In this document: one piece after another, positions 19,139-61,645 of the stretch
Layout of the letters: the number at the start of each line of letters is the position of its first letter
Position numbering within the stretch: position 1 is the stretch's first letter
Origin: Siphonodentalium dalli
Lineage: Eukaryota > Mollusca > Scaphopoda > Gadilida > Siphonodentaliidae
Assembly: GCA_032622095.1 (NCBI GenBank)
Contig: CP136063.1
Location: forward strand, 34,818,106 to 34,882,105
Direction of reading: 5' to 3'
DNA length: 64,000 nt
Notes under the pieces: generated by a model
What the model was told of the DNA's origin: nothing
The model's input: only the letters and a program-made list of their open reading frames with translations
Database searches by the model: none
Translations under genes and position numbers: made by a program

Positions 19139-20366
19139 TTATATGTAATACAGAATTTCTTTCCTATATTGCCTCATAATATCATCATCATCAATAAGAT
19201 CGTCTCTGAGAATATGTCCAAGGTATTTATAGGCGGGAACAAACTTAAGTTCTCTGCCCATGAGAAAAAGTTTTGGAAAGGTCGTGAGGGATAGGGATTT
19301 TAGTATGAACGCCATCCCTACTGTTTTTGTGCAATTATATACCAAATTTATGGGTAAAGCTTCGGCTTCACATATTCTCACGAGACGACGAAGTCCCTCT
19401 AGAGAGGGTGCAAGTAGACACATGTCATCAGCATAGCATAAATGGTTTACTCTCTTACCACCTATCACACATCCACTCTCGCTTTCATTCAACCTCTCAC
19501 TTATACCATTTATGTACACATTAAACAAATAAGGACTGAGAACCTCGCCTTGTCGAACTCCACTCGTTGGCCGGAATGGAGGCGAGTGCGATCCTCCCCA
19601 TCTGACGTTGTATTCCTGATTTCCAAACCAATTACTGAGGACATTGATGACTGAGGTCGGTACACCGCGTTTCCACAATAATTGGGTTAATGTTCTGTGA
19701 TTGACTCTATCAAATGCTTTGCTGGCGTCAAGCAAGCAGACGAAAGCAGGGGTATTCTTCGATATATAGTGATTTATTGTCTCTTTGAGTGCCAGAATGC
19801 AACTGTCAGTGGAATGTCCGCTCTTGAAACCGAATTGATTATCGGTTGTATGAAGGCGATGAGAAATTTTCTGCAGAACAACTTTTTCGAATATTTTTGA
19901 TATGAGTGTTGATAGAGCTATAGGTCGATAATTTTCAGATGACGAGATGTTAGCATTCTTATTCTTTAAAATCGGAACAAGCGTTACTTTCAGCAGTTTT
20001 GGTGGAAGGTGACCGGTTTCCAGTATTTTGTTGAACAGAAACATGAGGCATGTATTGATTCTTTCGTCACAGTATTTAAGGTGTTCAGCTGCTAACCCAT
20101 CTGGGCCTCGTGATTTACCCGATTTTAATGATTTTATTGATGTTTCGATTTCCTTCTCTGTGATGAAAATTCGTTTTTCAGGTTCGTCCTCGTATGTGTG
20201 AAGATCGTGCTGTTGAACGGTGTTACAAAATATGTTCTGGAAGTGTTCTCCCCAATACAATGTAATATCGGATTCGCCACTTTTCCCGTCTATGCAGTTA
20301 ACATTTCCACCGGAGTTACCACCTGTTACTGATTTCCAAAATTCCTTATAGTTTTTGTTCGTAAAT
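19139..20366 (-). pseudogene. Truncated non-LTR reverse transcriptase
   Basis: Read on the minus strand, an open frame runs from about 20366 to a stop at 19139 with no in-frame ATG at its start, so both ends are missing. It begins in the endonuclease-RT linker (NYKEFWKSV). It then carries GKSRGPDG, YRPIALSTLISKIFEK, DASKAFDRVNH, SGVRQGEVLSP (Arg in place of the usual Pro) and a catalytic YADD, and ends in the thumb region (DDDDIMRQYR). It differs clearly from ORF2 at 7243 and belongs to another non-LTR clade that I cannot name safely. It interrupts a family B element. The missing 3' end is unusual for LINE insertions, which normally lose their 5' end. Confidence 0.85.
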
Positions 20367-23548: not shown

Positions 23549-26035
23549 TTTTTTAGCTCAACTTTACTTTGTAAAGTTTGAGCTATTGCCATGGCTTGGT
23601 ATCCGTCGTCCGTGTGTGCAGTGTATGTGTGTGTGTGTGTGTGTGCGTGTGTGATGCGTCAACAATTTCCTTTAGCACGGGCTGCAGTTCGTACCTTTTG
23701 TCCGATTATTATGAAATTTGTCATGGATGTTGACATTGACATGTAGATGGGAACGAGTCATTTTGGGGTCATTCGGAAAAAAAACATGGCCGCCAGCAGC
23801 CATCTTGGATTTCAAAATTCAGCCCATTAGCACGGGCTACAGGCCATACTGTTCATCTTATTGTCATGAAATTTGTCATGGATGTTAATATTGACATGTA
23901 GATGGGAACGAGTAATTTTGGGGTCATTCGGCCATTTTAGATTTTACTCTTTGCATGACTAAATCCTTTGACACGGGCTACAGGTCGTACCTTTGGTCAG
24001 ATCATCATAAAATGTGTCATGGATGTTAACAATGACATGATGATGGGAACAAGTTATTTTTGGGTCATTCGGGCAAAAAACATGGCCACCAGCAGCCTTC
24101 TTGGATTTTACTCTTTGTATGACTAAATCCTTTAGCACGGGCTACAGGTCGTACCTTTAGTCTGATCATCATGAAATTTGTCATGACTGTTGAAATTGGA
24201 ATGTAGATGGGAATGAGTCATTTTGGGGTCATTAGGACAAAAAACATGGCCGCCAGCTGCCATCTTTGATTTCAAAATTTAATCCATTAGCACGGGCCAC
24301 AGGTCGTACTGTTCGTCTGATCATCATGAAATTTGTCATGGATGTTAATATTGACATGTAGATGGGAACGAGTAATTTTGGGGTCATTCGGCCAAAAAAC
24401 ATGGCCGCCAGCAGCCATCTTGGATTTTACTCTTTGTATCACTAAATTCTTTAGCACGGGCTACAGGTCGTACCTTTAGTATGATCATAATAAAATTTGT
24501 CATGGATGTTAACAATGACATGTAGATGGGAACGAGTCATTTTGGGGTCCTTTGGCCCAAAAACATGGCCGCCGGCAGCCATCTTAGATTTTACTCTTTG
24601 CATGACCAAATCCTTTGACACGGGCTACAGGTCGTACCTTTGGCCAGATCATCATAAAATGTGTCATGGATGTTGAAATTGGAATGTAGATGGGAACGAG
24701 TCATTTTGGGGTCATTCGGGCAAAAGACATGGCCGCCAGCAGCCATCTTGGATTTTACTCTGTGTATGACTAAATCCTTTAGCACGGGCTACAGGTCGTA
24801 CCTTTAGTCTGATCATCATGAAATTTGTTATGGCTGTTGAAATTGGAATGTAGATGGGAACGAGTCATTTTGGGGTCATTTGGACAAAAAACATGGCCGC
24901 CAGCTGCCATCTTTGATTTCAAAATTTAATCCATTAGCACGGGCCACAGGTCGTACCTTTAGTCTGGTCATCATAAAATTTCTCATGAATGTTAATAATG
25001 ACATGAAGATGGGAACGAGTCATTTTGGGGTCATTCGGCCAAAAAACATGGCCGCCAGCAGCCATCTTGGATTTTACTCTTTGTATGACTAAATCCTTTA
25101 GCACGGGCTACAGGTCGTACCTTTAGTATGATCATCATGAAATTTGTTATGGCTGTTGAAATTGGAATGTAGATGGGAACGAGTCATTTTGGGGTCATTT
25201 GGACAAAAAACATGGCCGCCAGCTGCCATCTTTGATTTCAAAATTTAATCCATTAGCACGGGCCACAGGTTGTACTGTTCGTCTGATCATCATGAAATTT
25301 GTCATGGATGTTAATATTGACATGTAGATGGGAACGAGTAATTTTGGGGTCATTCGGCCAAAAAACATGGCCGCCAGCAGCCATCTTGGATTTTACTCTT
25401 TGTATCACTAAATTCTTTAGCACGGGCTACAGGTCGTACCTTTAGTCTGATCATCATAAAATTTGTCATGAATGTTAATAATGACATGTAGATGGGAACG
25501 AGTCATTTTGGGGTTATTCGGCCAAAAAATATGGCCGCCAGCAGCCATCTTGGATTTTACTCTTTGTATGACTAAATCCTTTAGCACGGGCTACAGGTCG
25601 TACCTTTAGTTTGATCATCATAAAATTTGTCATGGCTGTTGAAATTGGAATGTAGATGGGAACGAGTTATTTTGGGGTCATTCGGACAAAAAACATGGCT
25701 GCCAGTGGCCATCTTGGATTTCAAAATTTAATCCATTAGCACGGGCCACAGGTCGTACTGTTCGTCTGATCATCATGAAATTTGTCATGGATGATAATAT
25801 TGACATGTAGATGGAAACGAGTAATTTTGGGGTCATTCGGCCAAAATACATGGCCGCCAGCAGCCATCTTGGATTTTACTCTTTGTATGACTAAATTCTT
25901 TAGCATGGGCTACAGGTCGTACCTTTAGTCTGATCGTCATGGATGTTAGCGATGACATGTAGATGGGAACGACTCATTTTGGGGTCATTCGGCTGAAAAC
26001 ATGGCTGCCAGCAGCCATCTTGGATTTTACTTTTC
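23549..26035 (+). mobile_element. Hairpin-headed element family A, copy 1 (about 15 modules)
   Basis: A T-run (23549-23554) and a hairpin (23555-23584, AGCTCAACTTTAC/GTAAAGTTTGAGCT) are followed by a TG-rich stretch. Then come about 15 tandem modules of 143-165 bp, each marked by 'agcacgggctacaggtcgta', 'atgaaatttgtcatgg', 'gggaacgagtcattttgggg' and 'catggccgccagcagccat'. Two module types alternate (..ggccacaggtcgtactgttcg and ..ggctacaggtcgtaccttt), giving higher-order units of about 320 bp. The canonical 3' end is missing after about 26035. Small ORFs here on both strands are artefacts of the repeat. Confidence 0.85.
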
Positions 26036-28880: not shown

Positions 28881-29204
28881 ATTGGACAATTGAACCTGCT
28901 GGAAATGTGACTGCCTGCAAAGGTGGCGATATTAATCTGGGCGGGAAATATGCTGGGACATCAATGTCTGTCGGCTTTTATAAAAATGGCAGGAGAATAG
29001 CATACAGTTTCAATTCTATTACTCCTGTTGCTGAAGCTGGTTTTGAGGGAAAAGTTGAGTGTATTGGTGACACACAAGCAGGAAATGCTACAATAAAACT
29101 AGTGAATCTAGTTCCTGCGGACTCAGGGGTCTATACAGTAACTGTTAGTGTGGTGGAAACACCTGGCCTCATCTTATCAGGAACCTCTACGGTCAGTGTA
29201 CTAG
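28881..29204 (+). CDS. IgSF receptor, Ig-like exon 1
   Basis: A 324-bp exon between ttttcag (acceptor) and GTGAGT (donor), phase 1-1, encodes about 108 residues of one Ig-like domain. It starts DWTIEPAGNV and has the F-strand signature DSGVYTVTV near residue 81, with an NATIKLVNL E-strand before it. The canonical F-strand Cys is replaced (YTV, not YxC), as in CD2/SLAM- or CEACAM-type N-domains. Two other Cys occur (C13 and C61). The C-strand Trp site reads GG (residues 21-22). It differs from Ig2 at one residue. Retaining the intron would add Glu-Tyr and a stop. An in-frame ATG lies just upstream (28856), but the splice site and the paralogues favour an internal exon. Expected role: extracellular ligand or self/non-self binding. 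Confidence 0.85.
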
Positions 29205-29242
29205 GTGAGTACTAGTTCTATGTTTTCACGTTACATGTACAT

Positions 29243-29365
29243 CAGCCCTCATAATTCAGATTTTTCAGCTTCGGCAATCCACTACGGCAACCATTGATGT
29301 GGGGCCCATTTGCTTCGGCAAATGGCTTCGGCATTGCTGATTGCCGTAGCCAATTATGAGGGCTG
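29243..29365. mobile_element. hAT-like MITE, 123 bp, in intron after Ig1
   Basis: Ends are CAGCCCTCATAATT and AATTATGAGGGCTG, flanked on both sides by TGTACAT (29236-29242 and 29366-29372). The paralogous introns after Ig2 and Ig3 lack it and read through as 'acatgtacatg(c/t)acc', a natural empty site. The interior is itself palindromic ('gcttcggcaat', 'attgccgtagc'). The CAG ends suggest hAT, although the visible duplication is 7 rather than 8 bp. Confidence 0.8.
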
Positions 29366-29372
29366 TGTACAT

Positions 29373-30405
29373 GTACCATTCAAACCAGTCTTTTTGAATT
29401 ACCGATGATAATCTGATCAGATTTACATCTCTCACAGATTTCTTTTCTAGGACGGCGCGTCTTTTCCCAAGATGACGAAATAAATTGTTTCCAAATATGG
29501 AGCGCATGCCTGGTGTAGTAAACATTCGTGAGAACCGTAGAAGTATTTATAAAAACAACAGGATGCGAATAAATAATCACTAATAAATAAAGTTGACTGA
29601 TAAAAACTTTAAAAATAGGTTACACATACCGTACCGTCAGTATATCCAACCTTACATACTAAATCATTGTTATACTGCCCGGGGACTCAGATAATGATGC
29701 AAACACCAAAGTCTGCGAAATTAGGGAAACATACTTTACATTTTACTCAGAATGCTATTTCCTTATGGCTTGAATAGGAAGGATTTTTAGTCACCTCTCT
29801 TCATATTTTATTATTTTATTATCTTCCTATTCATACGATGGCCACACCGGTTGCGAATTATTGACATCACAATCGGAACGCCGACTCAGGGAAGCGACAC
29901 CGTCGCGTCATCTATAGCCCCATTATGGGATGGCTGTGGTTTATTGTCCGGAAACCTGATAATGTCCACACAGAGAACCAGCCTCTACATACACATCTGT
30001 TGTACATCAACAAACACGGCCGCAAAATCGCCTTATTCTTAGAATGAAGTATCTTCGCTAATAAGGAAGTCAATCATTCCCTGACTTCTACTCGGGTCAA
30101 TTTTACGACACTGTATTCATTGAGTAAATACAGGTCCATTTGCTTAGCATGACAAATTCATCCTTCATCCAATGGCGCCGACTTTTGATTGTTCCAAATG
30201 AAACGGAGCTATATCGAAGCTGGCTATGCCTGCCATTCAAGAAAAGAACCAAGGTCAGTAGTTAGCCCACTCCTCATTACAGATTAAAAACTATGCACAA
30301 TCATAAATAGCCACAGAGCAACGATCTCCCAAAATACACCATAAAAATGAATCACTATGACAAATGGCCCCATCACCAGAAATAACCATAACAACATGTG
30401 ACGTC
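29373..30405. other. Intron, partly paralogous to 34060-34300
   Basis: Up to about 29620 it matches the intron after Ig2 ('tgacgaaataaattgtttcc', 'gcgaataaataatcac'). The rest, to 30405, is unclassified and shows no exon that I can support. Confidence 0.55.
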
Positions 30406-30409
30406 ATTG

Positions 30410-31030
30410 GGAACCACTGTGACGTCATAGTGAACCACAAATGTGAACCACCTAATGAACTAAACATAGAATAAAGTTCAATGAACCTCAACCATGGCTA
30501 CTAATTTAGAGATCCTAAGCAACATGGTGAACCATAACACCTGAGTGAACCACACCAGTGAACCACATATGTGAACAACCATACTACACATCCAAAACAT
30601 CTCTAGCAAATAGGAGTGAACCACAGATGTGAACCACTATGGTTCACTATCCACTGTACCATATATATGAACCACAAACCAACTAGCTCACACAAATTAG
30701 TGAACCACAACAAATTAAGGAGTGAACCACAATAGTCCACACCCCAGTGAACCACAAAAAATAGGCTAAGATACTATTATTTTTTAACACCACCATATAA
30801 GGGAGTGAACCACTGAGTGAACCAGATATGGAAACCACACAGTGAACCACAGTGAACCAGAAATGGAAACAACATGAGTGAACCATATCAGTGAACCATA
30901 AATGGAACCAACATGAGTGAACCATATAAATTAGTGAACCACAGAGAACCAGAAATGGAACCAACATGAGTGAACCACATTAGTGAACCACAACTATTCC
31001 CCCACTCAGTGAGCCACAATAGTGAACCAT
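30410..31030 (+). repeat. Irregular cluster of GTGAACCA(C/T) phrases
   Basis: The 8-9 nt phrase (A)GTGAACCA(C/T)(A) occurs roughly thirty times in about 620 bp. The spacers vary widely (about 5-45 nt) and have no fixed period. This is not a normal tandem repeat. It ends just before a TATA-like box. Confidence 0.75.
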
Positions 31031-31092
31031 ACTCACAATCCCTTGACCTTAACAGTTTCAACCAATCACATGGAAGGATGCCGCACCAAGCT

Positions 31093-31101
31093 GCTATATA
31101 A
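31093..31101 (+). promoter_or_regulatory. TATA-like box
   Basis: 'ctatataaac' lies between the GTGAACCA cluster and a hammerhead-like motif. Its position about 40 bp upstream of that motif suits a retroelement promoter. Function is unproven. Confidence 0.3.
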
Positions 31102-31136
31102 ACAGAGTCAGCAAGCTACTTTTCTCACACCCACAG

Positions 31137-31181
31137 GTCCTGACAAAGGATAATAACAATCCGAAACTAGTAGACCATTTC
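31137..31181 (+). ncRNA. Hammerhead-ribozyme-like motif (degenerate core)
   Basis: GGTC-CTGACAA-AGGAT-loop-ATCC-GAAAC is followed by GACC. GGTC/GACC and GGAT/ATCC can pair, and CTGAnGA and GAAA are the hammerhead core, here with the core G changed to A (CTGACAA). Minimal hammerheads with a tiny third helix are known from Penelope-like elements and retrozymes. The G-to-A change would probably abolish cleavage, so this looks like a relic. Confidence 0.35.
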
Positions 31182-32640
31182 TAGCAAAGGATTATTCGTT
31201 GATGGTGATCTTCCCTGGAGATTAACCTCTCATCTCTCCTTATATACCTTTATACTTACCCAAGCATATACTTACATATACTGGCATATTACTGCTGTTG
31301 TTTTATGGTGCCCACATTCATAGTGAGCAATGGGGGATGCCGCAGTGTCCTGGGCCCACAAAAAAGGTACCCTGCCTTGCTCACCGGAAGCTGTATTATG
31401 CTAATGATGAACAGATAGTCTGCCGTAGGAGCAGTTTTAGCCAGTCGAAAGTATAAAGGCAGAAATAAAAGAAAAAATTAAAAAATTATAGAGCACCCTG
31501 GAAGTCAGTCAAATATCTTTTAAATATCAATATTGTATTTAGGTTGAATTATTTGTTATTATTGTTTATGTAACAATCATAGTATTCACTATGGTTATAA
31601 TTGAATGCACTTATAATAAGTTAACTTAAAATTGGCGTAGGTAATTATACAAAAATGTTAGTATGCATACCTTTAAATTATAATCAAAGTTGGTCAACAA
31701 GCCCATATAGGTCAAAAGTAAAGTCAATAATATGTATAATATACCAGCATATCTTATAATGAGGTATCTGGTTTTAGTTTATATACAAAGTATAGTCTGA
31801 TAATAATGGGTCTATAACCTGCTTTTTGATCGAATTGTTTTTAATTATATTTATACATATATGTTTTATATTTTATTATAATAAAACTTCCCTCATATCC
31901 TTCTTAATGAGATTCCATTGATAATCAATTATGTGCAGTGAGTATCAAACCCTATATAATTATGAATAAATCTAATTATTGTATTAATATTATAATAGTG
32001 TATAATGTAGTTTTTGGTTTCTAGCAGCATAGTATTGCTATAAAGGTTATGCTGTTATAGGGGTATGTCATAAAAGGGTATAAATGTTTTAACGGATTAT
32101 ATTTATAACAAACTCTTATGTGTCTTATATATACATTTTAAATTATAGTATTATATAATTGTAAAGTTCCTTTTCTTAAATATCCTTTAACATGATTAAG
32201 TCCATTTTATTTGTGCTTATAACTATGTCCGTTAAAATTAATATAGGATTTGGCATTTAATATAGTATCTCCTTATAATTAAGGCAATTATGTGAATATT
32301 ACAAGGTATTGCCCTATACCCCTTAATAATATTATGTTCTAGTACCCTATTGTTAGTAGTACTATGCTGGGTGCCAGCGTTCAAACCAGGCATACTAATG
32401 CACATAAATTATCGTGGTGGTGGACAGACAGTAAAACAAACAGACAGACATACATAACATATAGCCATACGTACATATAATTCTTATTACTTAGACATTT
32501 CTTCAACTTTCTGCATTCCTACATGTAGTTGCTTCATTGACTGTAACACATGAAATTATCCCCTCTCCCAAGTTGAGCTACAGTGTCAGTGACACTTTCA
32601 TTATTAATTATTATTTATTTTTACATGCTTTTGATAAACA
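31182..32640. other. Intron, AT-rich, unclassified
   Basis: It has no exon I can support. 31300-31440 is less AT-rich and may be the remainder of a retroelement. The 3' part from about 32490 ('cttcattgactgtaacacatg', 'aagttgagctacagtgtca') is a remnant of a family A terminus shared by all three Ig-module introns. Confidence 0.5.
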
Positions 32641-33076
32641 GGACCTCGTTCGTTATTGGTATGTGATATAAACAGGACCTCATTCGTTATTGGTATGTGA
32701 TATAAACAGGACCTCATTCGTTATTGGTATGTGATATAAACAGGACCTCATTCGTTATTGGTATGTGATATAAACAGGACCTCATTCGTTATTGGTATGT
32801 GATATAAACAGGACCTCATTCGTTATTGGTATGTGATATAAACAGGACCTCATTCGTTATTGGTATGTGATATAAACAGGACCTCATTCGTTATTGGTAT
32901 GTGATATGAACAGGACCTCATTCGTTATTGGTATGTGATATAAACAGGACCTCATTCGTTATTGGTATGTGATATAAACAGGACCTCATTCGTTATTGGT
33001 ATGTGATATAAACAGGACCTCATTCGTTATTGGTATGTGATATAAACAGGACCTCGTTTGTTATTGGTATGTGATA
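32641..33076 (+). repeat. 34-bp minisatellite, about 13 copies
   Basis: The unit is 'ggacctcattcgttattggt' + 'atgtgatataaaca' (34 bp), nearly perfect over about 12.8 copies. The paralogous introns before hinge b (about 34711) and hinge c (about 40929) carry one copy each, so the array expanded after duplication, in this intron only. Confidence 0.92.
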
Positions 33077-33316
33077 AGTTCTTTCACTTCAATAATCTTT
33101 CTGAGACTTGTTAAGTTAAAATAAAGATATTATGCTATTTATCAACCAATTATGATTCCAGAAATACAACACAATCATGCAAATACCTATACTTGGCTTA
33201 ATATGAGGATTTGAGATAGCTTTCTTTCAAATGGTGGATTCAACAATCTGGATTCATTTAATATGAAAAACATTATTGCATGTATATGCTTCAATATCTA
33301 TAACTTGACATTCCAG

Positions 33317-33364
33317 CTTCATTAGACAGTAACTGTGTTGCAGTATGGGAACCACCAATGGGAG
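33317..33364 (+). CDS. IgSF receptor, hinge exon a
   Basis: A 48-bp exon between ttccag and GTAAGT, phase 1-1, encodes a short linker (LDSNCVAVWEPPMG) with one Cys. The same exon occurs after Ig2 and Ig3, each time with the same phase, splice sites and length. The conserved Cys could allow interchain or interdomain disulfides. It lies 4.1 kb from Ig1 because of insertions in the intron. Confidence 0.75.
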
Positions 33365-33696
33365 GTAAGTCATTGTCTCAGGCTATCTGTCATGTACAAA
33401 TCAACAGATGTAATTAGACATTTCAGCCATAAAATAGGTTGAAATTATCTAATTTTCTAACCAATTTTTAGTTAGTATAAAATATGTTGTGTTTATAATT
33501 ATATAAGAAAATTAGAATATTAAAGTTCCAATCAGTTGGGAATTTTGGACACCAGGAAGGTGCAATTCTATAGTGGACTTAACAAACACTCTATAGAAAC
33601 AGTCCAACCCATTTATCATCTTCTATGCTTGTTTATATATATTTTAGCTACCTGTACACATAGTGTTAAGATGTCACATTTGTTGAATTTTTTCAG

Positions 33697-34020
33697 ATTG
33701 GACAATTGAACCTGCTGGAAATGTGACTGCCTGCAAAGGTGGTGATATTAATCTGGGCGGGAAATATGCTGGGACATCAATGTCTGTCGGCTTTTATAAA
33801 AATGGCAGGAGAATAGCATACAGTTTCAATTCTATTACTCCTGTTGTTGAAGCTGGTTTTGAGGGAAAAGTTGAGTGTATTGGTGACACACAGGCAGGAA
33901 ATGCTACAATAAAACTAGTGAATCTAGTTCCTGCGGACTCAGGGGTCTATACAGTAACTGTTAGTGTGGTTGAAACACCTGGCCTCATCTTATCAGGAAC
34001 CTCTACGGTCAGTGTACTAG
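33697..34020 (+). CDS. IgSF receptor, Ig-like exon 2
   Basis: 324 bp, phase 1-1, between ttttttcag and GTGAGT. It differs from Ig1 at about four nucleotides, giving one residue change (V for A at residue 51). C13, C61 and the Gly-Gly at residues 21-22 are shared with Ig1. The near-identity shows a recent duplication or ongoing conversion. An internal ATG is not a start. Confidence 0.85.
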
Positions 34021-34021
34021 G

Positions 34022-34630
34022 TGAGTACTAGTTCTATGTTTTCTCGTTACATGTACATGCACCATTCAAACCAGTCTCTTGGAATACGGATGATAATCTG
34101 ATCAGATTTCACAGAGTTCTTTTATAGGATGGCGCACATCTGTTCCCAAGATGACGAAATAAATTGTTTCCAAATATGGAGCGCATTCCTGGTGTAGTAA
34201 ACATTCGTGAGAACCGTAGTAGTATTTATAAAAACAACAGGATGCGAATAAATAATCACTAATAAATATATTTGACTGATAAAAACTTAAAAAGTAGGTT
34301 ACACATAATTGGGTAACCTGCAGGCCTGCGCCACGTTAACAAGATTGTGCATATCTTGATAATTGATAAATTAATGGCATACCAGAACAGTCATTTCAGT
34401 TGATAGACTTCATTAGCATGGTGATGTACACAAAGGATGCAGATAGGTTACTTTATAGTTTGTCAACATGTAGACATTTTGATGTATGTCAAACTATCAA
34501 AATGTGTACATAACATGTACGCAGTGGTAGTACAACAAAGTTATCTATATGCACAGCGACAGCATATACAGGTAGAAACCGAAATTACATATCACGTGAC
34601 ACTTAATTATGCTGTTGACTGAACACTTGA
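34022..34630. other. Intron after Ig2
   Basis: The first 280 bp match the intron after Ig1. The rest ('gggtaacctgcaggcctgcg' onward, about 34310-34620) is unique to this copy and unclassified. Confidence 0.5.
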
Positions 34631-35520
34631 AATTGTCCCCTCTCCCAAGTTGAACTACAGTGTCATTGACACTTTCATTATTAATTATTTTTACATGCTT
34701 TTGATAAACAGGACCTTGTTCGTTATTGGTATGTGATAATTCCTTTCACTTCAATAATCTTTCTGAGACTTGTTAAGTTCAAATATAAGATTTTAAGCTA
34801 TTTATCAACCAATTATGATTCCAGAAATACAACAAAATCATGCAAATACCTACATTGTATACTTGGCTTAATATGAGGCTTTGGGGTAGGTTTCTTTCAA
34901 ATGGTGGATTCAATAATCTGGATTCATTTAATATGAAAAATATTATTGCATGTATATGCTTCAATATTTATAACTTGACATTCCAGCTTCATCTGACACT
35001 AAGTGTGTTGCAGTATTGGAACCATCAGCGGGAGGTAAGTCATTAATGTCTCAGGCTATAAATACCAATTTAGGACAAAACATAGCATCAGGTTTGATTT
35101 AGGGACATTTTATGAAGGAAAATACAGTTTTAGCGGCGATGCGAGGAGTCAAAAAACTTATTTTATATATAAAAAAAACACAGAATTTTTTTCCAAAATC
35201 ACACCAGACTACACGTTATTGTATAGGCACTAAAAATATACCAAATTGTTACTGAACTGCATGGCTTACAGTTTATTAAACAGTCCATGTCACTTCCTAC
35301 TGGAAATTGTGTTTTGTTCCATTAAAATATAGTTAGCGGTACATACTTCGAAGAGAAATAAACCAAGCTATCGATACAAATTAGTGAAATCGATTAACTT
35401 GGATTCCATTTTGTGCCAATTTGATATTAATACTTGTTGGATATGTATAAATTATGTTCATAATTACATGTTCTTAATTACTAGTTTCATTTCCAAGTTG
35501 CATGAAGGTACCGGTAGTAC
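34630..35520 (+). repeat. Duplicated hinge-containing block (paralogue of 40810-41760)
   Basis: The block runs from a family A 3'-end remnant through the hinge exon into the next intron ('ggcgatgcgaggagtcaaaa', 'gaaggtaccggtagtacaga'). It is matched over about 900 bp around hinge c with small indels. Together with the Ig exons this defines the unit of segmental duplication. Confidence 0.8.
34987..35034 (+). CDS. IgSF receptor, hinge exon b
   Basis: 48 bp, phase 1-1, acceptor ttccag, donor GTAAGT. It encodes SSDTKCVAVLEPSAG. Cys is conserved, while the Trp of hinges a and c is Leu here. Confidence 0.75.
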
Positions 35521-35750
35521 AGACATCATGAAATTTGTCATGAATGTTAATATTAACATGTAACTGGGATCGAGTCATTTTGGGGTTATTCGACAAAAAA
35601 ACATGGCTGCCAGTTGCCATCTTGGATTTTACTCTTTGCATAACTATACCTTTCAACTTTGCCCACTCTTAATCACTCCATTGACTGTAACACATGAAAT
35701 TATTCCCTTTCCAAGTTGAGCTACAGTGTCATTGACACTTTCATATTATA
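35520..35750 (+). mobile_element. Family A fragment (one module plus 3' end)
   Basis: A single module ('catgaaatttgtcatgaatg', 'gagtcattttggggttattc', 'catggctgccagttgccat') is followed by the A terminus 'aagttgagctacagtgtcat'. The head is missing. Confidence 0.65.
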
Positions 35751-35918
35751 TCTTCAGGTTTCTCCTCCTTCACTTGCATGGAATTTTGTTGTTAAAAAAT
35801 AACCCTTCTCAACATTCCTGATACTTTAACAGAAATACTTGTTATCTGATATATCTTATTTTATATTGGATTATTTTGACACACTCTTTGCCCCTATTGA
35901 ATGATTCATTTATTTTTA

Positions 35919-36789
35919 TTTTTATGTGTACCCATTCCATAGTATGGTACACATAGCATCGATGTCCGGATTGACCAGTCGTCGTTTGTCCATCTGTCTG
36001 TTCATCTATCCGTAGACACTTTACGCATGGTGTGATAACGCAAACATTATTTATTCAATCGGAACCAAATTTTGTATATGTGTTTCTCAGCCCAAGTTCG
36101 TGTTCGATTAAATTTTTTTTTTTTACGGAGTTATGGCCCTTCTTCGACTTAGAATTCATGCATGCCGCAATAACTGAAAACAAATTTATCTGATTGAAAC
36201 CAAATTTCTAATGTGAGTTTCTGGGCCCAAAATACAGATAGAATTCATAATTTGGGTTTGATTAAATTTTTATGTGTACCCATACCATAGTATGGTACAC
36301 ATAGTGTCAACGTCCGGATTGACCACTCGTCGTTGGTCCGTCTGTCTGTTCGTCCGCCTGTCTGTCCGTCCATCCGTAGACACTTCACATGTAATGCGAT
36401 AACTCAAACATTTTCAATCTAATCAGAACAAAATTTTGTATATGGGTTTCTCAGCCCAAAATACAGATCGAGTTCGAATTTGGGTTCGATCTGAGTTTCT
36501 TTTACGGAGTTATGGCCCTTATTTGACTTAAAATTCATGAATTCTATGATAACTAAAAACAAAATTATCTCATCAGAACCAAATTTGGTATCTCAGTTTC
36601 TCCAGATAAAATACAGTTCTAGTTCGAATATGGGTTTGATCAGATTATTTATGATAGAGTTATTGCCCTTTGACATAGAATTTCATGCATGCTTCGATAG
36701 ATCTACCAGTTTTCATCTGATAGGAACCAAATTTGGTATGTGAGTTTGTCAACTCAAAATACAGATCGAGTTTGAATATGGGTCAGATC
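35919..36789 (+). mobile_element. Hairpin-headed family C, two heads in tandem
   Basis: Heads lie at 35924-35954 and 36272-36302. Each is a T-run plus a hairpin ATGTGTACCCAT...ATGGTACACAT, followed by 'gtccggattgacca' and GTCCGTC-type sequence. The modules carry 'aaccaaattttgtatatg' or 'aaccaaatttggtatgtg', 'tctcagcccaaaatacagat' and 'gagttatggccct'. The second copy is split by a hAT element at 36790. Confidence 0.75.
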
Positions 36790-37103
36790 CAGACTTGTTT
36801 ACTTTGAAAATCAGAAATAGGGAGATTCACCTTCATAAATAGGGAGATTTGGATAAAAATAGGGAGATTTTATCTTCGATGGTAAATTAGTAAAACATCA
36901 CGTATAGAAAGGAATTTATGGGCTACTATAAATAAAGAATAAGTTATTATGATTACGTGTATATATGATTTTATTTTATATATAAACTTAAAAATCAATA
37001 ATAATATATTACAACATTACTCGTCGCATCATTGATCTTCATGGTTGAACTTTGGAAGATTTACTGCAGTTTTGTAGTCGATTGAAATGAGTGTTTCTCT
37101 CAT

Positions 37104-37196
37104 ATGATATTTATGAAACTCGTCACAAATTTTCAGTTTTCTCGAGCCTCCGGCGAGAGAAAACTGAAAATTCGTGATGAGTTTTATAAATATCAT
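37104..37196. repeat. 41-43 bp-arm foldback inside the hAT element
   Basis: 37104-37144 pairs with 37154-37196 ('cagttttctcg'/'cgagagaaaactg' at the base of the loop) with a few mismatches. It lies beside the transposase relic. Confidence 0.7.
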
Positions 37197-37239
37197 TCGA
37201 CTGCGAGATCGTCGAATTGCTCATCTGTCTGAATTAGCC

Positions 37240-37656
37240 CAAAGCCTTTTGACAAATTATCAACGATGATTCTGTAACATTGTCCCTGGCTTCTTCCTTT
37301 GGATTAAGAATGGTCAAATCATCAAATATGTGTTCCTCAAAGGGAAATTTCTGAATCATTTTGTCAACAATTGACTGAACGTACGCGCACTGTCAAAATG
37401 TTTTCACTTCTCTTGGGCTTATTTGCCCTTTGACCTCCTCGATGTATGCGCGCGCTGTCATGCCAACTGCGAGACTAGTATACGGAAGTTGATTTTCTGT
37501 TAACTCATATCGTACCGAGGTGATAGTGTCACTGGCTTTTATCACGATGCTTTTCACGAACTTTCCTAAGAATTTCCATAACAACCTTTCCATCTCAGTC
37601 TGCATGAATCCCAGCATGGTTTCGTCTGATTGAAATAGCGTATTAAATTCGTTCAT
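37240..37656 (-). pseudogene. hAT-type transposase C-terminal relic
   Basis: On the minus strand, 37656-37393 reads as 87 residues with EMERLLWKFLGKFVKS and ENQLPYTSLAVG, a pattern familiar from hAT-family transposase-like proteins. After a frameshift the sequence continues as IVDKMIQKFPFEEHIFDDL and LTILNPKEEARDN, as in their dimerisation region. There is no intact catalytic triad. It sits in the correct place inside the 36790-38093 element. Confidence 0.6.
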
Positions 37657-38182
37657 TGGATGAAGAATGTAGTTTAGTAAATAAGTGATTTGTTATGATG
37701 AAAGAAAAATGTGTTTCGTTATATAGTCACACATAAGCTTGTAAGGAAATCCGCCGTTTATGATATTGACAAATACAGCTCAGTTTCCACTTACTCTTTC
37801 GTCACTTTCACAAAAGAATCAAAGCCGACATGAATACCAGTGTCGCTGGTAGGATTAGTCTAAATTGATTTATTGCACCCGCATGGCTTCATTGCGTGTG
37901 GTCAACCGCTAGCTAATTGATTTTTGCGCCTGTTTTAGTCGCCACAGGGACAGCCTATTAATCACTGTAAATTATTTTTTTATTCTGGTATAGACATTTG
38001 AAATCGGGAGATTCTGTTTCCGGATCGGGAGCGCGGGAAAAGACGATTAAAATCGGGAGTCTCCCGCGAAAATCGGGAGGGTAAACAAGTCTGGTCAGAT
38101 CCTGTTTTTTATACCAGAGTTATGGCCCCTTTTAAACTAAGAATTGAACATATTTGAGATTTGCTTACAATATATAACCATA

Positions 38183-39490
38183 GCAGTATTGAAATTTCAA
38201 TATCGGTATCGGTAAATTTTCGTTGATTTACCTCGGTATCGGTACGGTAATCGGTATTGCTATTAAATTATAAGACCAGAGCAGATATTCCCGGTAAATT
38301 GTTGTAATTCAAGTTTTTAGCTGACCAATATACATCTATATATGACCACGGTCCACGGATTTACTACATTCGTGACAATAGCTAAATTAGGCAACAAAAT
38401 GACCTACGCAATTAATTAATATTCACACATCTCTTTGATGATTTACACGCATGTCGTCGCACTGATTTGAAAAGAATAAGAGCATGACTACAATATTTTT
38501 TCGTGTCAATTTGATTTTCGTAACATTTCCATGAGTGAATAGAATTGTGAGTAGTAATCAGGGATCACAAATTGATGAAGGTTCGCGCGATGTCATGAAA
38601 ATCAGCAAACCATGGCAATTTCCGAACTGCAAATGCTCAAACCCACGGGTGGTTCATATTCTCCTCCTTGCAGCGTGATATACCATTCATGCATACAAGA
38701 GTCCCTCTTATTTATAGCAGGCAAGCTACCGGTGGCACATGGTGCCCAAGTGTTAATTTAAAGCTATCACGTGATCTTTTTCAGATATAAGCACATATGT
38801 ATAATATACCGGTAAGTAGATATATGTTTAATAAAGTAATTTATAGTAGGATATAAACTTATTTATACCGACATATATGTGCACAACTTTCCAAGAAGAT
38901 GTGCTACTTGCAATCGACAAGATCAGGTTGTATAAAAAAATCTGAATGCGTATATCAAGTCGCTATTGCATCACCGTCTAATTATAAAGTAACCTGTTTC
39001 AATTTGTTGTGCACAGGGACCCCCCCCCCATAACACGTTTTTCGATTCCACATGCTTCTATCCAACTTGGGACACCGATTATAGACTTGCGGCCTGTACC
39101 GATCGAGTTGCCCACGCATTGTCCAGTTTGCACAGATACCGAAATTGACACATACATGTAACACTCCAGCTATGAGTTGTCAAACGTCATGATGTTAGTT
39201 ATATTATCATTAATATGTCGTAAAGATCAAAGATGCATTCCGTCGGGCAGCTGTGCCCTTGATGTAACAATGTTGCAATAGACTGATACATGTAGTACCG
39301 ACTTGTTACACAGAGTTATCATAATTATCCGATTCTCGTTGCATACGGTTGACCGGTCATACAATTCATGCACGTCACGGCTGCGGTGACAAGGTGACGC
39401 ACATACGTTGGCAACACATGAATAATATCATTATCGAAAATACGGTATTTTTAGTTTTATTCGGTACGGTAAATCGGTATTACGCTGATA
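38183..39490. mobile_element. Probable degraded transposon with CGGTATCGG ends
   Basis: 'caatatcggtatcggtaaat' and 'cggtatcggtacggtaatcg' lie at 38200-38270. 'attcggtacggtaaatcggt' lies at 39457-39477. Such CGGTA-rich termini are common in hAT-like MITEs. Neither a target duplication nor exact ends could be set, and the interior is non-coding. Confidence 0.35.
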
Positions 39491-40252
39491 TTAGAGAGAT
39501 TAGAGTTAACCTGTATTATTGATAATGAATTCTGATACTCACTGCTGCACATATAGCCATCTGTTGTTTATTTCATTTCCATAGTGTGTGGACAGTGTTG
39601 GCTCATTATTTATCAACTCCAGCACAGCTCTCTGGTTTAGCCTATCAATGCAGTGTTCAAGTGACATACCTGGTACAGTCCCCTAATTTTATACAGGTTA
39701 AAATTGTTATCCCTTGTCATCGATTTTATGCTTTTGTATATTTTTCATGTAATCATTCACCTATTATTTTCCCTTCACTTGTTCGGTATGGATTTTTGGA
39801 TCTAAAATGAACCCTTCTCAACATTCCTGATCATTAATAGAAATACCTTTCATCTGATATATATCTCATTTTGTTGAGATGTATGTAAATTTGGTATGTG
39901 AGTTTCTCAGCCCAAAATACAGATAAAGTTCGAATTTGGGTTTGATCCATTTTTTAAAACAGAGTTATGGCTTATGAATTTTTGCATCCAGTCTGAAAAT
40001 AGCTGATCACTATCGCCAAGGTATGAGTTAAACATCTGCCGATCGTGATAGGCCTCTCGTTTTTAACAGAATTATGGCCCTTTTTAAAAAAGATAGGATT
40101 TTAGCATCCAAGCTGAAAATAGCTAATCACTAATGCCAAGGTATGGGTTAAAAATCTGCTGATTGTGTTCGACCTCTCGTTAAATCAGTGCAACCATTAA
40201 GCTACATGTACACATAGCGCTAAGATGTCACATTAGTTGATTTTTTTTTCAG
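39491..40252. other. Intron with family C modules
   Basis: 39895-40190 contains family C phrases ('aaatttggtatgtgagtttc', 'cccaaaatacagat') and two copies of a 'ctgaaaatagct(g/a)atcact' + 'gccaaggtatg(a/g)gttaaa' unit (about 39991 and 40113). 39586-39700 has an open frame after 'tttccatag', but phase and similarity give no support for an exon. Confidence 0.5.
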
Positions 40253-40576
40253 ATTGGACAAGTAAACCTGCTGGAAATGTGTCTGTCTGCAAGGGTGATG
40301 ATTTTATACTGGAATGGAAATACGTTGGGACATCAATGTCTGTCAGCTTTTACAAAGATAAACCAAGAATAGCATACAGTTTCAATTCTATTACTCCTGA
40401 TGTTCAACCTGGTTTTGAGGGAAAAGTTGAGTTTATTGGTGACACACAAGCAGGAAATGCTACAATAAAACTAGTGAATCTAGTTCCTGCGGACTCAGGG
40501 GTCTATACAGTAACTGTTAGTGTGGTGGAAACACCTGGCCTCATCTTGTCAGGAACCACTACGGTCAGTGTACTGG
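40253..40576 (+). CDS. IgSF receptor, Ig-like exon 3 (diverged N-terminal half)
   Basis: 324 bp, phase 1-1, acceptor ttttcag, donor GTGAGT. It encodes DWTSKPAGNV...KGDDFILEWKYV...SFYKDKPRIAYSF...DSGVYTVTV. Compared with Ig1 it has 19 replacement and 3 silent codon differences in residues 1-61, but one replacement and two silent in the last 48. It keeps C13, has Trp at residue 22 (Gly in Ig1/Ig2) and has lost C61 (Phe). The F-strand Cys is absent in all three. The second half is almost identical at silent sites too, which indicates conversion or recent exchange. The domain is probably the membrane-proximal Ig module. Confidence 0.86.
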
Positions 40577-40720: not shown

Positions 40721-41197
40721 CTCAGAGATTGGATTTTACTTTCAATTTTACTTGAGATATATCTTTTCATGTTAATATCTAGTATTTCTTAGACATTTCA
40801 ACTTTCTGCAAATTCCTAGTTGCTTCATTGACTGTAACACATGAACTTATCCCCTCTCCCAAGTTGAGCTACAGTGTCATTGACACTTTCATTAATTATT
40901 ATTTATTTTTACATGCTTTTGATAAATATGACCTCGTTCGTTATTGGTATGTGATAATTCCTTTCACTTCAATAATCTTTCTGAGACTTGTTAAGTTAAG
41001 TTATAAGATTTTATGCTATTTATCAACCAATTATGATTCCAGAAATACAACACAATCATGCAAATACCTATACTTGGCTTAATATGAGGCTTTGGGATAG
41101 GTTTCTTTCAAATGGTGGATTCAACAATCTGGATTCATTTAATATGAAAAAAATTATTGCATGTATATGCTTCAATATTTATAACTTGACATTCCAG

Positions 41198-41245
41198 TTT
41201 CATCAGACAGTAAGTGTGTTGCAGTATGGGAACCATCAGTGGGAG
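41198..41245 (+). CDS. IgSF receptor, hinge exon c
   Basis: 48 bp, phase 1-1, acceptor attccag, donor GTAAGT. It encodes SSDSKCVAVWEPSVG, with Cys and Trp as in hinge a. Joined to the transmembrane exon it would read SVGG-LSGGEIAA. Confidence 0.78.
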
Positions 41246-42140
41246 GTAAGTCATTAATGTCTCAGGCTATAAATACCAATTTAGGGCAAAACATAGCGTC
41301 AGGTGTGATTTAGGGACATTTTATGAAGGAAAATACAGTTTTAGCGGCGATGCGAGGAGTCAAAAAACATATTTTATATATAAAAAAAACGGAAACATTT
41401 TCCAAAATCACACCAGACTACATGTTTATCCCTATTCTAATTCAAACTGACCGAAAATTTGTGCTACTTGTATAGGCACTATATAAATATACCAAATTGT
41501 CACTGAACTGCTTGGCTGACAGTTTATTAAACAGTCCATGTCATTTACTACTTCCATTAAAATATAGTTAGCGGTACATACTTCAAAGAGAAATAAACCA
41601 AGCTATCGATAGGAATAAGTGAAATCGATTAACTTGGATTCCATTTTGTGCCAATTTGATATTGATACTTGTTGGATATATGTATAAATTATGTTCATAA
41701 TTACATGTTCTTAATTACTAGTTTCATTTCCAAGTTGCACGAAGGTACCGGTAGTACAGACTATTGACATTGCATAGCATCAATAGTCGGGGTGCACATC
41801 AAAGTTAGTGAACAACGGTTCTGTTTTCACAAATTTATCAATAATCCTCCAGTGACGAGATTCCAAAAGCATTGTTGGTAAACCCGATCTGTAACAACAG
41901 TAAGGCATGTGTTCACTTTCAGCAACAAACAATATATATATTTAGACATAACTGTTATGATTTCCGCAGCGTGAACCTCCAAATACCCCATCGGCCGGTA
42001 TACCGGCCGCTGGACCGGCCATATATCGACCGCCACGTGTTTGTTGTTTACATACATCGTCGCAGTCGTCTGCTTGTCCAATAATTATGTTTTTGTTAGT
42101 GTCTTGTTGCTATTGTGTTTAAGCACTCAACATAATGAAT
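41246..42140. other. Intron, paralogous to 35035-35520 in first half
   Basis: To about 41760 it matches the intron after hinge b. From 41761 it is different and carries 'ggccggtataccggccgctggaccggcc' type palindromic CCGG clusters near 41992-42020. No exon was found. Confidence 0.5.
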
Positions 42141-47175: not shown

Positions 47176-48445
47176 TTTTAGCTCAACTTTACTTTGTAAA
47201 GTTTGAGCTATTGCCATGGCTTGGTATCCGTCGTCCGTGTGTGCGTGTGTAATGCGTCAACAATTTCCTTTAGCACGGGCTACAGTTCGTACCTTTGGTC
47301 CGATTATTATGAAATTTGTCATGAATGTTGACATTGACATGTAGATGGGAACGAGTCATTTTGGGGTTATTCGGAAAAAAAACATGGCTGCCATCGGCCA
47401 TCTTGGATTTCAAAATTCAATCCATTAGCACGGGCTACAGGCCGTACTGTTTGTCTTATCATCATGAAATTTGTCATGGATGTTAATATTGACATGTAAA
47501 TGGGAACGAGTTATTTTGGGGTCATTCGGCCAAAAAACATGGCCGCCAGCAGCCATCTTGGATTTTACTCTTTGTATGACTAAATTCTTTAGCACGGGCT
47601 ACAGGTCGTACCTTTAGTCTGATCATCATAAAATTTGTCATGAATGTTAACAAAGACATGTAGATGGGAACGAGTCATATTGGGGTCATTCGGCCGAAAA
47701 ACATGGCCGCCAGCAGCCATCTTGAATTTTACTCTTTGTATGACTAAATCCTTTAGCACGGGCTTCAGGTCGTACCTTTAGTCTGATCATCATAAAATTT
47801 GTCAAGAATGTTAATAATGACATGTAGATGGGAACGAGTCATTTTGGGGTCATTCGGCCAAAAAACATGGCCGCCAGCAGCCATCTTGGATTTTACTCTT
47901 TGTATGACTAAATCGTTTAGCACAGGCTACAGTTCGTACCTTTAGTCTTATCATCATAAAATTTGTCATCGATGTTAACAATGGCATGTAGATGGGAACG
48001 AGTCATTTTGGGGTCATTCGGCCGAAAAACATGGCCGCCAGCAGCCATCTTTGATTTCAAAATTAATTCATTAGCATGGGCCACAGGTCGTACTGTTCGT
48101 CTGATCATCATGAAATTTGTCATGGATGTTAATATTGACATGTAGATGGGAACGAGTAATTTTGGGGTCATTCAGCCAAAAAACATGGCCGCCAGCAGCC
48201 ATCTTGGATCTTACTCTTTGTATGACTAAATTCTTTAGCATGGGCTACAGGTCGTACCTTTAATCTGATCATCATAAAATTTGTCATGAATGTTAACAAT
48301 GACATGTAGATGGGAACGAGTCACCACATCCAATTGTCACCAAACTTCATATGGATCTTAAACATGGCAGCCAGTGGCCATCTTGGATTTTACTCTTTTC
48401 ATGACTAAATCCTTAGGCACACCCTTCAGGCCACATCCCTCATCC
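47175..48445 (+). mobile_element. Family A copy 3 (about seven modules)
   Basis: A T-run (47175-47179) and hairpin 47180-47209 are followed by about seven modules of 155-165 bp with the family phrases. It is nested in copy 2. Its 3' end is probably the A terminus at 49558-49595 ('aagttgagctacagtgtcat'), so 48446-49557 would be later insertion or divergent interior; the exon at 49282 lies within that stretch. Confidence 0.75.
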
Positions 48446-54130: not shown

Positions 54131-55535
54131 TTTTTTTTTTAGCTCAACTTACTTTTGTAAGTTTGAGCTATTGCCATGGTTTGGCGTCCGTCGTCCGTGT
54201 GTCCGTGTGTCCGTCAACAATTTCCTTTGGCGCGGGCTTCAGGTTGTACCTTTGGTCTGATCTTTATGAAATTTGTCATGAATGTTGACATTGACATGTA
54301 GATGGGAACGAGTCATTTTGGGGTCATTCGGCCAAAAAACATGGCCGCTGGCAGCCATCTTGGATTTCAAGATTCAATCCATTGGCGCGGGCTACAGGTC
54401 GTACTGTTCGTCTGATCATCATGAAATTTTTCATTGATGTTAATATTGACATGTAGATGGGATCGAGTCATTTTGGGGTCGTTCGGCCAAAAAACATGGC
54501 CGCCAGCAGCCATCTTCGATTTTACTCTTTGCATGGCTAAATCCTTTGGCGCGGGCTACAGGTCGTAGCTTTGATCGGAAGATCATGAAATTTGTCATGG
54601 ATGTTAACAATGACATGTAGATGGGAACGATTCATTTTGGGGTTGTTCGGCTGAAAAACATGGCCGCCAGCAGCCATCTTGGATTTTACTCTTTGCATAA
54701 CTAAATCCTTTGGCGCGGGCTACAGGTCGTACCTTGGTCTAATCTTTATGAAATTTATCATGAATGTTGACATTGACATGTAGATGGGAGTGAGTCATTT
54801 TGGGGTCATTCGGCCAAAAAACATGGCCGCTGGCAGCCATCTTGGATTTCAAGTTTCAATCCATTGGCGCGGGCTACAGGTCGTACTGTTCATGAAATTT
54901 TTCATGGATGTTAATAATGACATGTAGATGGGAACGAGTGATTTTTGGGGTCGTTTGGCCAAAAAACATGGCCGCCAGCAGCCATCTTGGATTTTACTCT
55001 TTGCATGACTAAATCCTTTGGTGCGGGCTACAGGTCGTAGCTTGGGTCAGATGGTCATGAAATTTGTCATGGATGATAACAATGACATGTAGATGGGAAC
55101 GAGTCGTTTTGGGGTCATTCTGTCCAAAAACGTGGCCGCCAGCAGCCATCTTGGATTTTACTATTTGCATGACTAAATCCTTTCGCGCAGGCCATTTTGG
55201 ATTTCAAAATTCAATCCATTGGCGGGGTCTACAGGTCGTACTGTTCGTCTGATCATCATGAAGTTTGTAGGTCGTAGCTTTGGTCAGATCTTCTTAAAAT
55301 TTGTCATGGATGTTAACAATGACACGTAGATCTATGGGAACGAGTCCTTTTGGGGTCAATTGGCCAAAAAACATGGCCGCCAGCAGCCATCTTGTATTTT
55401 ACTCTTTGCATCACTAAATCCTTTGGCGCAGGTTAGACATTTCAATTAGCACCTTTCCTATTCCTCCATTTACTGTCAACCATTAAATTATTCCCCTACC
55501 TAAGTTGAGCTACAGTGTCATTGACACTTTCATTT
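54131..55535 (+). mobile_element. Family A copy 4, complete (head, about eight modules, 3' end)
   Basis: A T-run and hairpin (54141-54169) are followed by about eight modules of the GCGGGCTACAGG type and the terminus AAGTTGAGCTACAGTGTCAT...TTTCATTT. The uninterrupted family F copy at 61650-61720 ('gctaattgcggtgcgg', 'ctttctttttt', 'aaagttacgcc') is the empty site. It shows insertion at the T-run/AAAG boundary. Confidence 0.8.
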
Positions 55536-55937
55536 AAGTTACGCCTCATTTTTGACTTATTTTGACTTAGAAAATTCTGTCCGACTTAATAACTTTAACA
55601 AATATGAACCGATTTCAATAATTTTTGGTATACATGCTTCTCGCAAATCCTCTCTACATGATGCGGCTAGGGATTGGCTCAGACTGTTTTTCATAATATT
55701 ACACTTCATTTTCGACTTATTTTGACTTAGAAAATTCGGTCCGACTTAATAACTTTAACAAATATGAACCAATTTGAATAATTTTTTCTGTACAAGCTTC
55801 TTGTGACACCATATCGATATTATTAGTCCACATTTTTCTTTAAAGTTAAAAATCGTTTTTGTTGGGTTTACGGATAATGCGGGTTGAATTTGCCACGCTG
55901 GGGGTATGCTCGAGTACACACCTCTTGTTTTACTTAG

Positions 55938-57022
55938 GGTACCACATGGGGGTATGCACCATGCGAGAGAGAGTACCACATGGGGGTATGCACCATGCGA
56001 GAGAGAGTACCACATGGGGGTATGCACCATGCGAGAGAGAGTACCACATGGGGGTATGCACCATGCGAGAGAGAGTACCACATGGGGGTATGCACCATGC
56101 GAGAGAGAGTACCACATGGGGGTATGCACCATGCGAGAGAGGGTACCACATGGGGGTATGCACCATGCGAGAGAGGGTACCATACCACATGGGGGTATGC
56201 ACCATGCGAGAGAGGGTACCACATGGGGGTATGCACCATGCGAGAGAGGGTACCATACCACATGGGGGTATGCACCATGCGAGAGAGGGTACCACATGGG
56301 GGTATGCACCAATCGAGAGAGGGTACCACATGGGGGTATGCACCAATCGAGAGAGGGTACCACATGGGGGTATGCACCATGCGAGAGAGGGTACCATACC
56401 ACATGGGGGTATGCACCATGCGAGAGAGGGTACCACATGGGGGTATGCACCAATCGAGAGAGGGTACCACATGGGGGTATGCACCATGCGAGAGAGGGTA
56501 CCACATGGGGGTATGCACATGCGAGAGAGGGTACCATACCACATGGGGGTATGCACCATGCGAGAGAGGGTACCACATGGGGGTATGCACCATGCGAGAG
56601 AGGGTACCACATGGGGGTATGCACCATGCGAGAGAGGGTACCATACCACATGGGGGTATGCACCATGCGAGAGAGGGTACCACATGGGGGTATGCACCAA
56701 TCGAGAGAGGGTACCACATGGGGGTATGCACCATGCGAGAGAGAGTACCACATGGGGGTATGCACCATGCGAGAGAGGGTACCATACCACATGGGGGTAT
56801 GCACCATGCGAGAGAGGGTACCACATGGGGGTATGCACCAATCGAGAGAGGGTACCACATGGGGGTATGCACCATGCGAGAGAGGGTACCATACCACATG
56901 GGGGTATGCACCATGCGAGAGAGGGTACCACATGGGGGTATGCACCAATCGAGAGAGGGTACCACATGGGGGTATGCACCATGCGAGAGAGGGTACCACA
57001 TGTGGGTATGCACCAATTGAGA
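55938..57022 (+). repeat. 34-bp minisatellite, 31 copies, with 39-bp variants
   Basis: The unit is 'ggtaccacatgggggtatgc' + 'accatgcgagagag' (34 bp). Seven units carry a 5-bp insert (taccataccaca). Several read 'caccaatcg' instead of 'caccatgcg', spaced in a 3-4 unit higher-order pattern. Because 34 is not a multiple of 3 and the unit has no stops, frames on both strands stay open for 340-440 codons. These are artefacts, not genes. The unit contains the GGGGGTAT terminus of family F, so it probably arose from the element's 3' end. Confidence 0.93.
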
Positions 57023-59895: not shown

Positions 59896-61645
59896 AAACA
59901 TGGCCGCCGGCAGCCATCTTAGATTTACTCTTTGCATGACTAAATTCTTTGGCACGGCTTACAGGTTGTCATGAATGTTAACATTGACATGTAGATGGGA
60001 ACGACTTATTTTGGGGTAATTCGGCCGAAAAACATGGCTGCCGGCAGCCATCTTAGATTTACTCTTTGCATGACTAAATTCTTTGGTATGGCCTACAGGT
60101 CGTACCCTTGGTCGGATCATCATAAAATGTGTCATAGCTGTTAACATTGAAACGTAGATGGGAACGAGTCATTTTGGGTTCATTCGGGAAAAAAACATGG
60201 CTGCCAGTGGCCATCTTGGATTTCAATATTCAATCAATTAGCACGGGCTACAGGTCGTACAGTTCGTCTGATCATCATGAAATTTGTCATGGATATTAAT
60301 ATTGACATGTAGATGGGAACGACTTATTTTGGGGTCATTCGGCCAAAAAACATGGCTGCCGGCAGCCATCTTAGATTTACTCTTTGCATGACTAAATTCT
60401 TTGGTATGGCCTACAGGTCGTACCCTTGGTCGGATCATCATAAAATGTGTCATAGCTGTTAACATTGAAATGTAGATGGGAACGAGTCATTTTGGGTTCA
60501 TTCGGGAAAAAAACATGGCTGCCAGTGGCCATCTTGGATTTCAATATTCAATCAATTAGCACGGGCTACAGGTCGTACTGTTCGTCTGATCATCATGAAA
60601 TTTGTTATGGATATTAATATTGACATGTAGATGGGAACGAGTAATTTTGGGGTTGTTCGGCCAAAAAACATGGCCACTGGCAGCCATCTTAGATTTTACT
60701 CTTTGCATGACTAAATTCTTTGGCACGGCCTACAGGTCGTACCTTTGGTCGGATCATCATAAATTTTTTCATGGATGTTAACAATGACATGTAGATGGGA
60801 ACGAGTCATTTTGGGGTCATTCGGCAAAAAAACATGGCTGCCAGCAGCCATTTTTGGATTTTACTCTTTGTATGACTAAATCCTTTAGCACGGGTTACAG
60901 GTCGTACCTTTAGTCTAATCATAATGAAATTATGGCTGTTGAAATTGGAATGTAGATGGGAACGAGTCATTTTGGGGTCATTCGGACAAACAACATGGCC
61001 GCCAGTGGCCATCTTGGATTTCAAAATTCAATCCATTAGCTCGGGCTACAGGTCGTACCTTTGGTCCGATCTTTATGAAATTTGTCATGAATGTTGACAT
61101 TGTCATGTAGATGGGAACGAGTTATTTTGGGGTTATTCGGCAAAAAACATGGCCACCAGCGGCCATTTTGGATTTCAAAATTCAATCCATTGGCGCGGGC
61201 TACAGGTCATACTGCTCGTCTGATCATCATGAAATTTTTCATGGATGTTAATATTGACATGTAGATGGGAACGAGTCATTTTGGGGTCATTGGATTTAAC
61301 TCTTTGCATGACTAAATCCTTTGGCGCGGCCTACAGGTCATAGCTTTGGTCAGATCTTCATGAAATTTGTTACGGATGTTAACAATGACATGTAGATAGG
61401 AATTATTCATTTTGGAGTCATTTGGCCAAAAAACATGGCTGCCAGCAGTCATTTTGGATTTTACTCTTTGCATGACTAAATCCTTTGACACAGGCTACAA
61501 GTCGTATCATTTGTCAGATCATCATGAAATTTGTACGGGATGTTAATAATGACATGTAAATGGGAACGAGTCTTTTGGGGTCATTTGGCAAAAAAACATG
61601 GATGCCAGCGGCCATCTTAGATTTTACTCTTTGCATAACTAGTTT
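59896..61645 (+). mobile_element. Family A modules without a head (copy 5)
   Basis: About ten modules of 155-165 bp follow directly on family B sequence ('cttctcaagaaacatggccg'), which suggests recombination or truncation. A two-module unit of about 315 bp is duplicated (59988-60300 and 60300-60620). Confidence 0.7.

Follow-up and report, generated by a model that had tools for sequence, protein, structure and literature searches.

We have found that a 64,000-nucleotide stretch of the Siphonodentalium dalli genome (the window) carries three tandem cassettes, each pairing a V-set-like immunoglobulin (Ig) exon with a short hinge exon, and that the third Ig exon, Ig3, is a recombination mosaic. 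The near identity of its second half to the neighboring exons is the product of recombination, and its replacement-rich first half represents near-neutral divergence of an older segment together with a few selected sites. Overall, we consider it likely that the locus is an array of V-set and hinge cassettes in which Ig3 is recombinant and some codons are under modest selection, and that it would encode the ectodomain of a recognition or adhesion protein.

In each cassette, a hinge exon of 48 nt lies downstream of the V-set exon, and all of these exons are on the forward strand. The exons Ig1 (28881-29204), Ig2 (33697-34020) and Ig3 (40253-40576) are each 324 nt long, and the hinge exons lie at 33317-33364 (hinge 1, SLDSNCVAVWEPPMG), 34987-35034 (hinge 2, SSDTKCVAVLEPSAG) and 41198-41245 (hinge 3, SSDSKCVAVWEPSVG). 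The AG/GT splice sites are intact at all three Ig exons, and the three hinge exons likewise have an open frame and AG/GT splice sites. Since the Ig and hinge exons are all of phase 1-1, joining them in any number or combination keeps the reading frame. Hinge exons with an open frame and splice sites occur at five places in the genome; hinge homologues lie downstream of the paralogue on chromosome C5 and about 15 kb downstream of one paralogue on C3. When cross-locus conservation was examined against the paralogue loci on C5, C3 and C8, where introns are long, no coding exon was recognized beyond the hinge; transmembrane exons were sought in the same comparison, and otherwise only non-coding-looking blocks were seen. 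The intron before hinge 1 contains a 34-bp minisatellite (32634-33076; 13 copies, 98%), the unit of which resembles a single-copy motif preceding hinges 2 and 3. Each of these units contains GGTATGTG and AACAGG, which are splice-site-like.

The array belongs to a dispersed family. A search of the whole 2.2 Gb assembly (nine contigs, TACATGTA-rich sequence) gave exon-sized matches at 37 places with Ig1 as the query and at 37, largely the same set, with a distant member as the query. About 40 related Ig exons are present genome-wide, on the six chromosomes C2, C3, C5, C6, C7 and C8; nearly all have an open frame and the same splice pattern, and a few are truncated. At one place on C8 (C8:18260144-18260827; L063 7609-8330), two family Ig domains lie in one unbroken 240-aa frame with no inter-domain intron. 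Near-identical Ig copies were observed 1.36 Mb apart on C8, with flanks differing by 1.1% (L026/L027), and 0.9 Mb apart and inverted on C3, with flanks differing by 0.3% (L031/L032). These pairs are either recent large duplications or unmerged haplotypes.

Within the window, only 4 nt separate Ig1 from Ig2, with one change being a replacement and three being silent. Between Ig1 and Ig3, 22 codons differ in codons 1-61 (19 replacement, 3 silent; 29 nt) and 3 differ in the remaining 46 codons (1 replacement, 2 silent). These counts, which our recount found to be right, had been reported in the original prediction, and the uneven spread between the halves is not due to chance (29 nt vs 3 nt, binomial p = 5e-5). 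The prediction had further held that the split goes beyond neutral divergence. However, when substitutions were counted over paths by the Nei-Gojobori method, the first half showed 22.2 replacement changes per 140 sites and 6.8 silent changes per 43 sites (NG86 dN 0.177, dS 0.181, dN/dS 0.98), so that its excess of replacements lies within neutral expectation; the second half gave a dN of 0.010, a dS of 0.052 and a dN/dS of 0.20. Random changes are mostly replacements, and several codons carry two or three base changes; as a proof of selection, the 19:3 count was ruled out. Accordingly, with a dN/dS of about 1 in the first half, positive selection is unsupported by the Ig1/Ig3 pair alone.

The contrast between the halves tracks genealogy and not a half-specific selection regime. 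In a GENECONV-like permutation test, none of 4000 shuffles was as extreme as the longest identical run between Ig1 and Ig3, and among 78 pairs only this one remained significant in the longest-run test once corrected (p 0.00025). The split between halves was absent from every other close paralogue pair tested, and in those listed the differences were evenly spread. The split is therefore local to this array. We then mapped site patterns with the C5 paralogue as a fourth sequence beside Ig1, Ig2 and Ig3. Across the 5' intron and codons 1-52, most sites set Ig3 apart from Ig1, Ig2 and the C5 copy; across codons 56-97, most sites set the C5 copy apart from the three window exons, which agree with one another. 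The genealogy in this map changes near codons 52-60, and the map and the permutation test together define a breakpoint interval in Ig3 at 40408-40433 on the forward strand (29036-29061 in Ig1). Freezing of the second half by constraint was ruled out, as differences in this half are just as numerous for the C5 copy and others.

The flanking DNA was also compared. On the 5' side, the intron of Ig3 differs from those of Ig1 and Ig2 by 12-15%, although it is alignable over 51-67 bp only, so that the older age of this side depends partly on the exon itself. The first halves of Ig2 and Ig3 differ at 27 of 183 sites (15%), a level equal to that of the 5' intron. On the 3' side, the second halves of the two exons differ at 5 of 138 sites (2-4% for Ig3 against Ig1 and Ig2), and the 3' intron and hinge region at 60 of 1034 (5.8%). 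Tested against the 3' flank for the same pair, the first half stands apart (p = 4e-5) and the second half is statistically indistinguishable (p = 0.54). In cassette 3, the young side of the mosaic includes the 3' intron and hinge segment at 40828-41761, which is about 5% (43/885) different from its cassette 2 counterpart (34615-35524). Since the 5' flank diverges like the first half and the 3' flank like the second half, Ig3 is a mosaic, and a single breakpoint near codons 52-61 explains the divergence pattern.

In Ig3, the codons from 1 to about 52-60, together with the 5' intron, derive from an older lineage, and the rest of the exon, the following intron and the hinge were shared recently with Ig1 and Ig2. 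The exchange was either an unequal crossover or a gene conversion continuing to the hinge, and the two are indistinguishable here. The original prediction had proposed gene conversion of the rest of the exon. Homogenization of the second half by recombination is borne out, but the tract need not end with the half, as it fits the 3' intron and hinge too. A conversion limited to the second half, of about 114-139 bp and bounded on both sides, would agree with the Ig3-unique differences that reappear at codons 98-107 and in the 3' intron. However, the 3' intron and hinge region are as young as the second half, so a 3' tract boundary is unnecessary, and we regard a conversion bounded in this way as unlikely.

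The AlphaFold2 model of Ig3, made with 24 paralogues, predicted a V-set fold with a pLDDT of 95.6, and the PF07686 V-set profile was matched by 21 of 25 members. The best structure matches of the model were JAML, Nav beta-2, P0, CAR and TIGIT, with Z of about 14-15 over about 100 residues. The Cys of strand F (the Y-x-C position) is absent in every full-length member examined. The disulfide between strands B and F is common in the V-set fold but not universal, and in terms of predicted fold and profile, the domain is placed in the V-set as a variant without the canonical disulfide. Trp21 lies in a strand of the model and within an L-x-W-x-Y pattern, which makes it a candidate for the canonical B-strand Cys position, and it may occupy this position; the profile alignment to Nav beta-2 disagrees and pairs Trp21 with the Trp of its LNW motif. 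Every other full-length copy in the alignment keeps Trp21, which is lost in Ig1 and Ig2 (W21G in Ig1), and Cys60, which replaces Phe or Tyr, is unique to these two exons (F60C in Ig1).

The loss of the otherwise invariant Trp21 and of Phe or Tyr at position 60 is what would be expected if Ig1 and Ig2 were turning into pseudogene exons under relaxed constraint, with replacements at the neutral rate; the dN/dS of about 1 and the truncation of a few other family copies point the same way. However, the reading frames and splice sites of both exons are intact. They also differ by 1 replacement in 236 exon sites against 37 of 593 sites in their introns (p = 6e-5), a closeness in the exon that comes from either purifying selection or conversion restricted to the exon. 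We consider such decay improbable.

Selection was further evaluated with the codon site models M7, M8 and M8a on 13 close paralogues, the halves being treated separately; the models were coded by us and used the branch lengths of a nucleotide tree, and M8 can be inflated by recombination and alignment gaps. The first half had an overall dN/dS of 0.85, near or below 1, so that the value above 1 anticipated for the whole first half over more copies did not appear. The model comparisons for this half were significant (M7-M8 p = 6e-4; M8a-M8 p = 2e-4), also without the window copies (p = 0.001 and 0.002, the latter for M8a-M8), and in a parametric bootstrap with 37 null data sets, none gave a value as large for M8a-M8 and one did for M7-M8. 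The second half had an overall dN/dS of 0.76 with an M7-M8 p of 1e-5, and p = 0.04 / 0.007 after removal of the indel-rich codons 89-100. Among the codons with dN/dS > 1, codons 31 and 36, located just before and just after the FYK motif, were the most consistent, and codons 4, 7, 18, 105 and 107 were also found. In distant paralogues the selection signal was absent (dN/dS 0.46 and 0.32). Sites 93-99 in the F-G loop were rejected as selected, being mostly beside indels and in a half with weaker support after trimming. Faster evolution of exon than intron was also rejected as proof of positive selection: the nonsynonymous/intron ratio was 0.4-1.7 in diverged pairs, and the lowest p for a ratio above 1 was 0.04, uncorrected.

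Diversifying selection at a minority of sites is real and modest, and it acts in both halves, more weakly in the second. The predicted diversifying selection on the N-terminal half thus survives for a minority of sites across the 13 paralogues; it does not follow from the Ig1/Ig3 counts, and it is not confined to the first half. Strong diversifying selection on the N-terminal half with strong purifying selection on the C-terminal half, acting without recombination, would agree with the sites of dN/dS > 1 in the first half and the dN/dS of 0.2 in the second half of Ig1/Ig3, but it is highly unlikely: in other close pairs, among them comparisons of window copies with the C5 copy, the differences are divided evenly; sites of dN/dS > 1 occur in the second half too; the 5' noncoding DNA matches the first half in its divergence; and the genealogy changes at the breakpoint. 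A striking contrast in replacement and silent changes between exon halves can therefore be a genealogical mosaic instead of half-specific selection, and a site-pattern map combined with flanking introns is a tested way of separating the two.

In terms of function, the predicted V-set fold, the roughly 40 exons and the fast evolution make a recognition-receptor family plausible, and the family may have a role in immunity or allorecognition. Positive selection at some sites across copies, a trait of diversifying receptor families, was found here to a modest degree. We infer that the cassettes would encode the ectodomain of a protein for recognition or adhesion, and that cassette exchange together with weak diversifying selection at some positions may renew its binding surface. 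A bolder and doubtful proposal is that of an animal receptor family built from in-frame V-set and hinge cassettes without the canonical disulfide, in which exchange between neighbors would make hybrid binding domains tuned by selection, and in which the Ig1/Ig2 form, having lost the conserved Trp and gained a Cys, would represent a structural variant maintained by selection. Should its expression be found in immune cells or upon allogeneic contact, the family would be a further invertebrate case of Ig diversification through cassette exchange, in V-set domains lacking the usual disulfide.

Several known systems can be compared with this locus. Dscam has phase-compatible Ig-module exons in tandem, as is the case here, but the window holds only three cassettes, with whole-domain exons and separate hinge exons, and mutually exclusive splicing is not part of the likeness. 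The vertebrate V-set adhesion and co-receptor proteins JAML, CAR, P0/MPZ, Nav beta-2 and TIGIT share the fold (Z 14-15), with weak sequence-profile matches (JAML, Nav beta-2), whereas identity is 13-26% and the Y-x-C of strand F is absent in the exons here; a fold in common with these proteins does not imply a function in common. The N-terminal domains of the Alr allorecognition proteins of Hydractinia are fast-evolving. The Alr family has 41 members (PMC11999971) and is likewise a family of diverged V-set/I-set-like genes, but the Alr genes lie in one complex, whereas the copies here are on several chromosomes. Allorecognition receptors of this type are recognized by their high allelic polymorphism and a fusion/rejection phenotype.

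The molluscan FREP/VIgL proteins of Biomphalaria and Aplysia carry tandem V-type Ig domains along with linkers (PMC7588048, PMC9334734) and are reported to diversify by point mutation and recombination (PMC11999971). Their tandem arrangement with linkers is like the Ig and hinge cassettes here, although the F-strand Cys is absent in the exons of the window. By definition, a FREP/VIgL protein joins one or more Ig domains to a lectin domain, of the fibrinogen or another type; haemocyte expression and binding to the surfaces of parasites or microbes are further traits of the group. The genome contains 677 fibrinogen-C candidates, which from their sequence would represent a very large candidate expansion of this domain; the best 150 of the 677 were scored, with clusters on C2, C3, C4, C6, C7 and C9, and among these 150 none is near the array (C3:34.8 Mb), where introns are long, and none is linked to the Ig exons. 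On this comparison, the family resembles FREP/VIgL and Alr in kind, as fast-evolving V-set families.

The remainder of the window contains repeats and mobile elements. A LINE-type element at 3532-10785 has an ORF1-like frame (3532-4707) and a 1199-aa endonuclease/reverse-transcriptase ORF (7186-10785), and a second reverse-transcriptase fragment lies on the minus strand at 19139-20365. Another 34-bp minisatellite (55936-57015; about 31 copies) is open in several frames on both strands, and its long ORFs are probably not genes. A 155/164-bp satellite forms four blocks (23931-26031, 47266-48323, 54223-55192 and 59966-61291), and related pieces adjoin Ig paralogues elsewhere in the genome.
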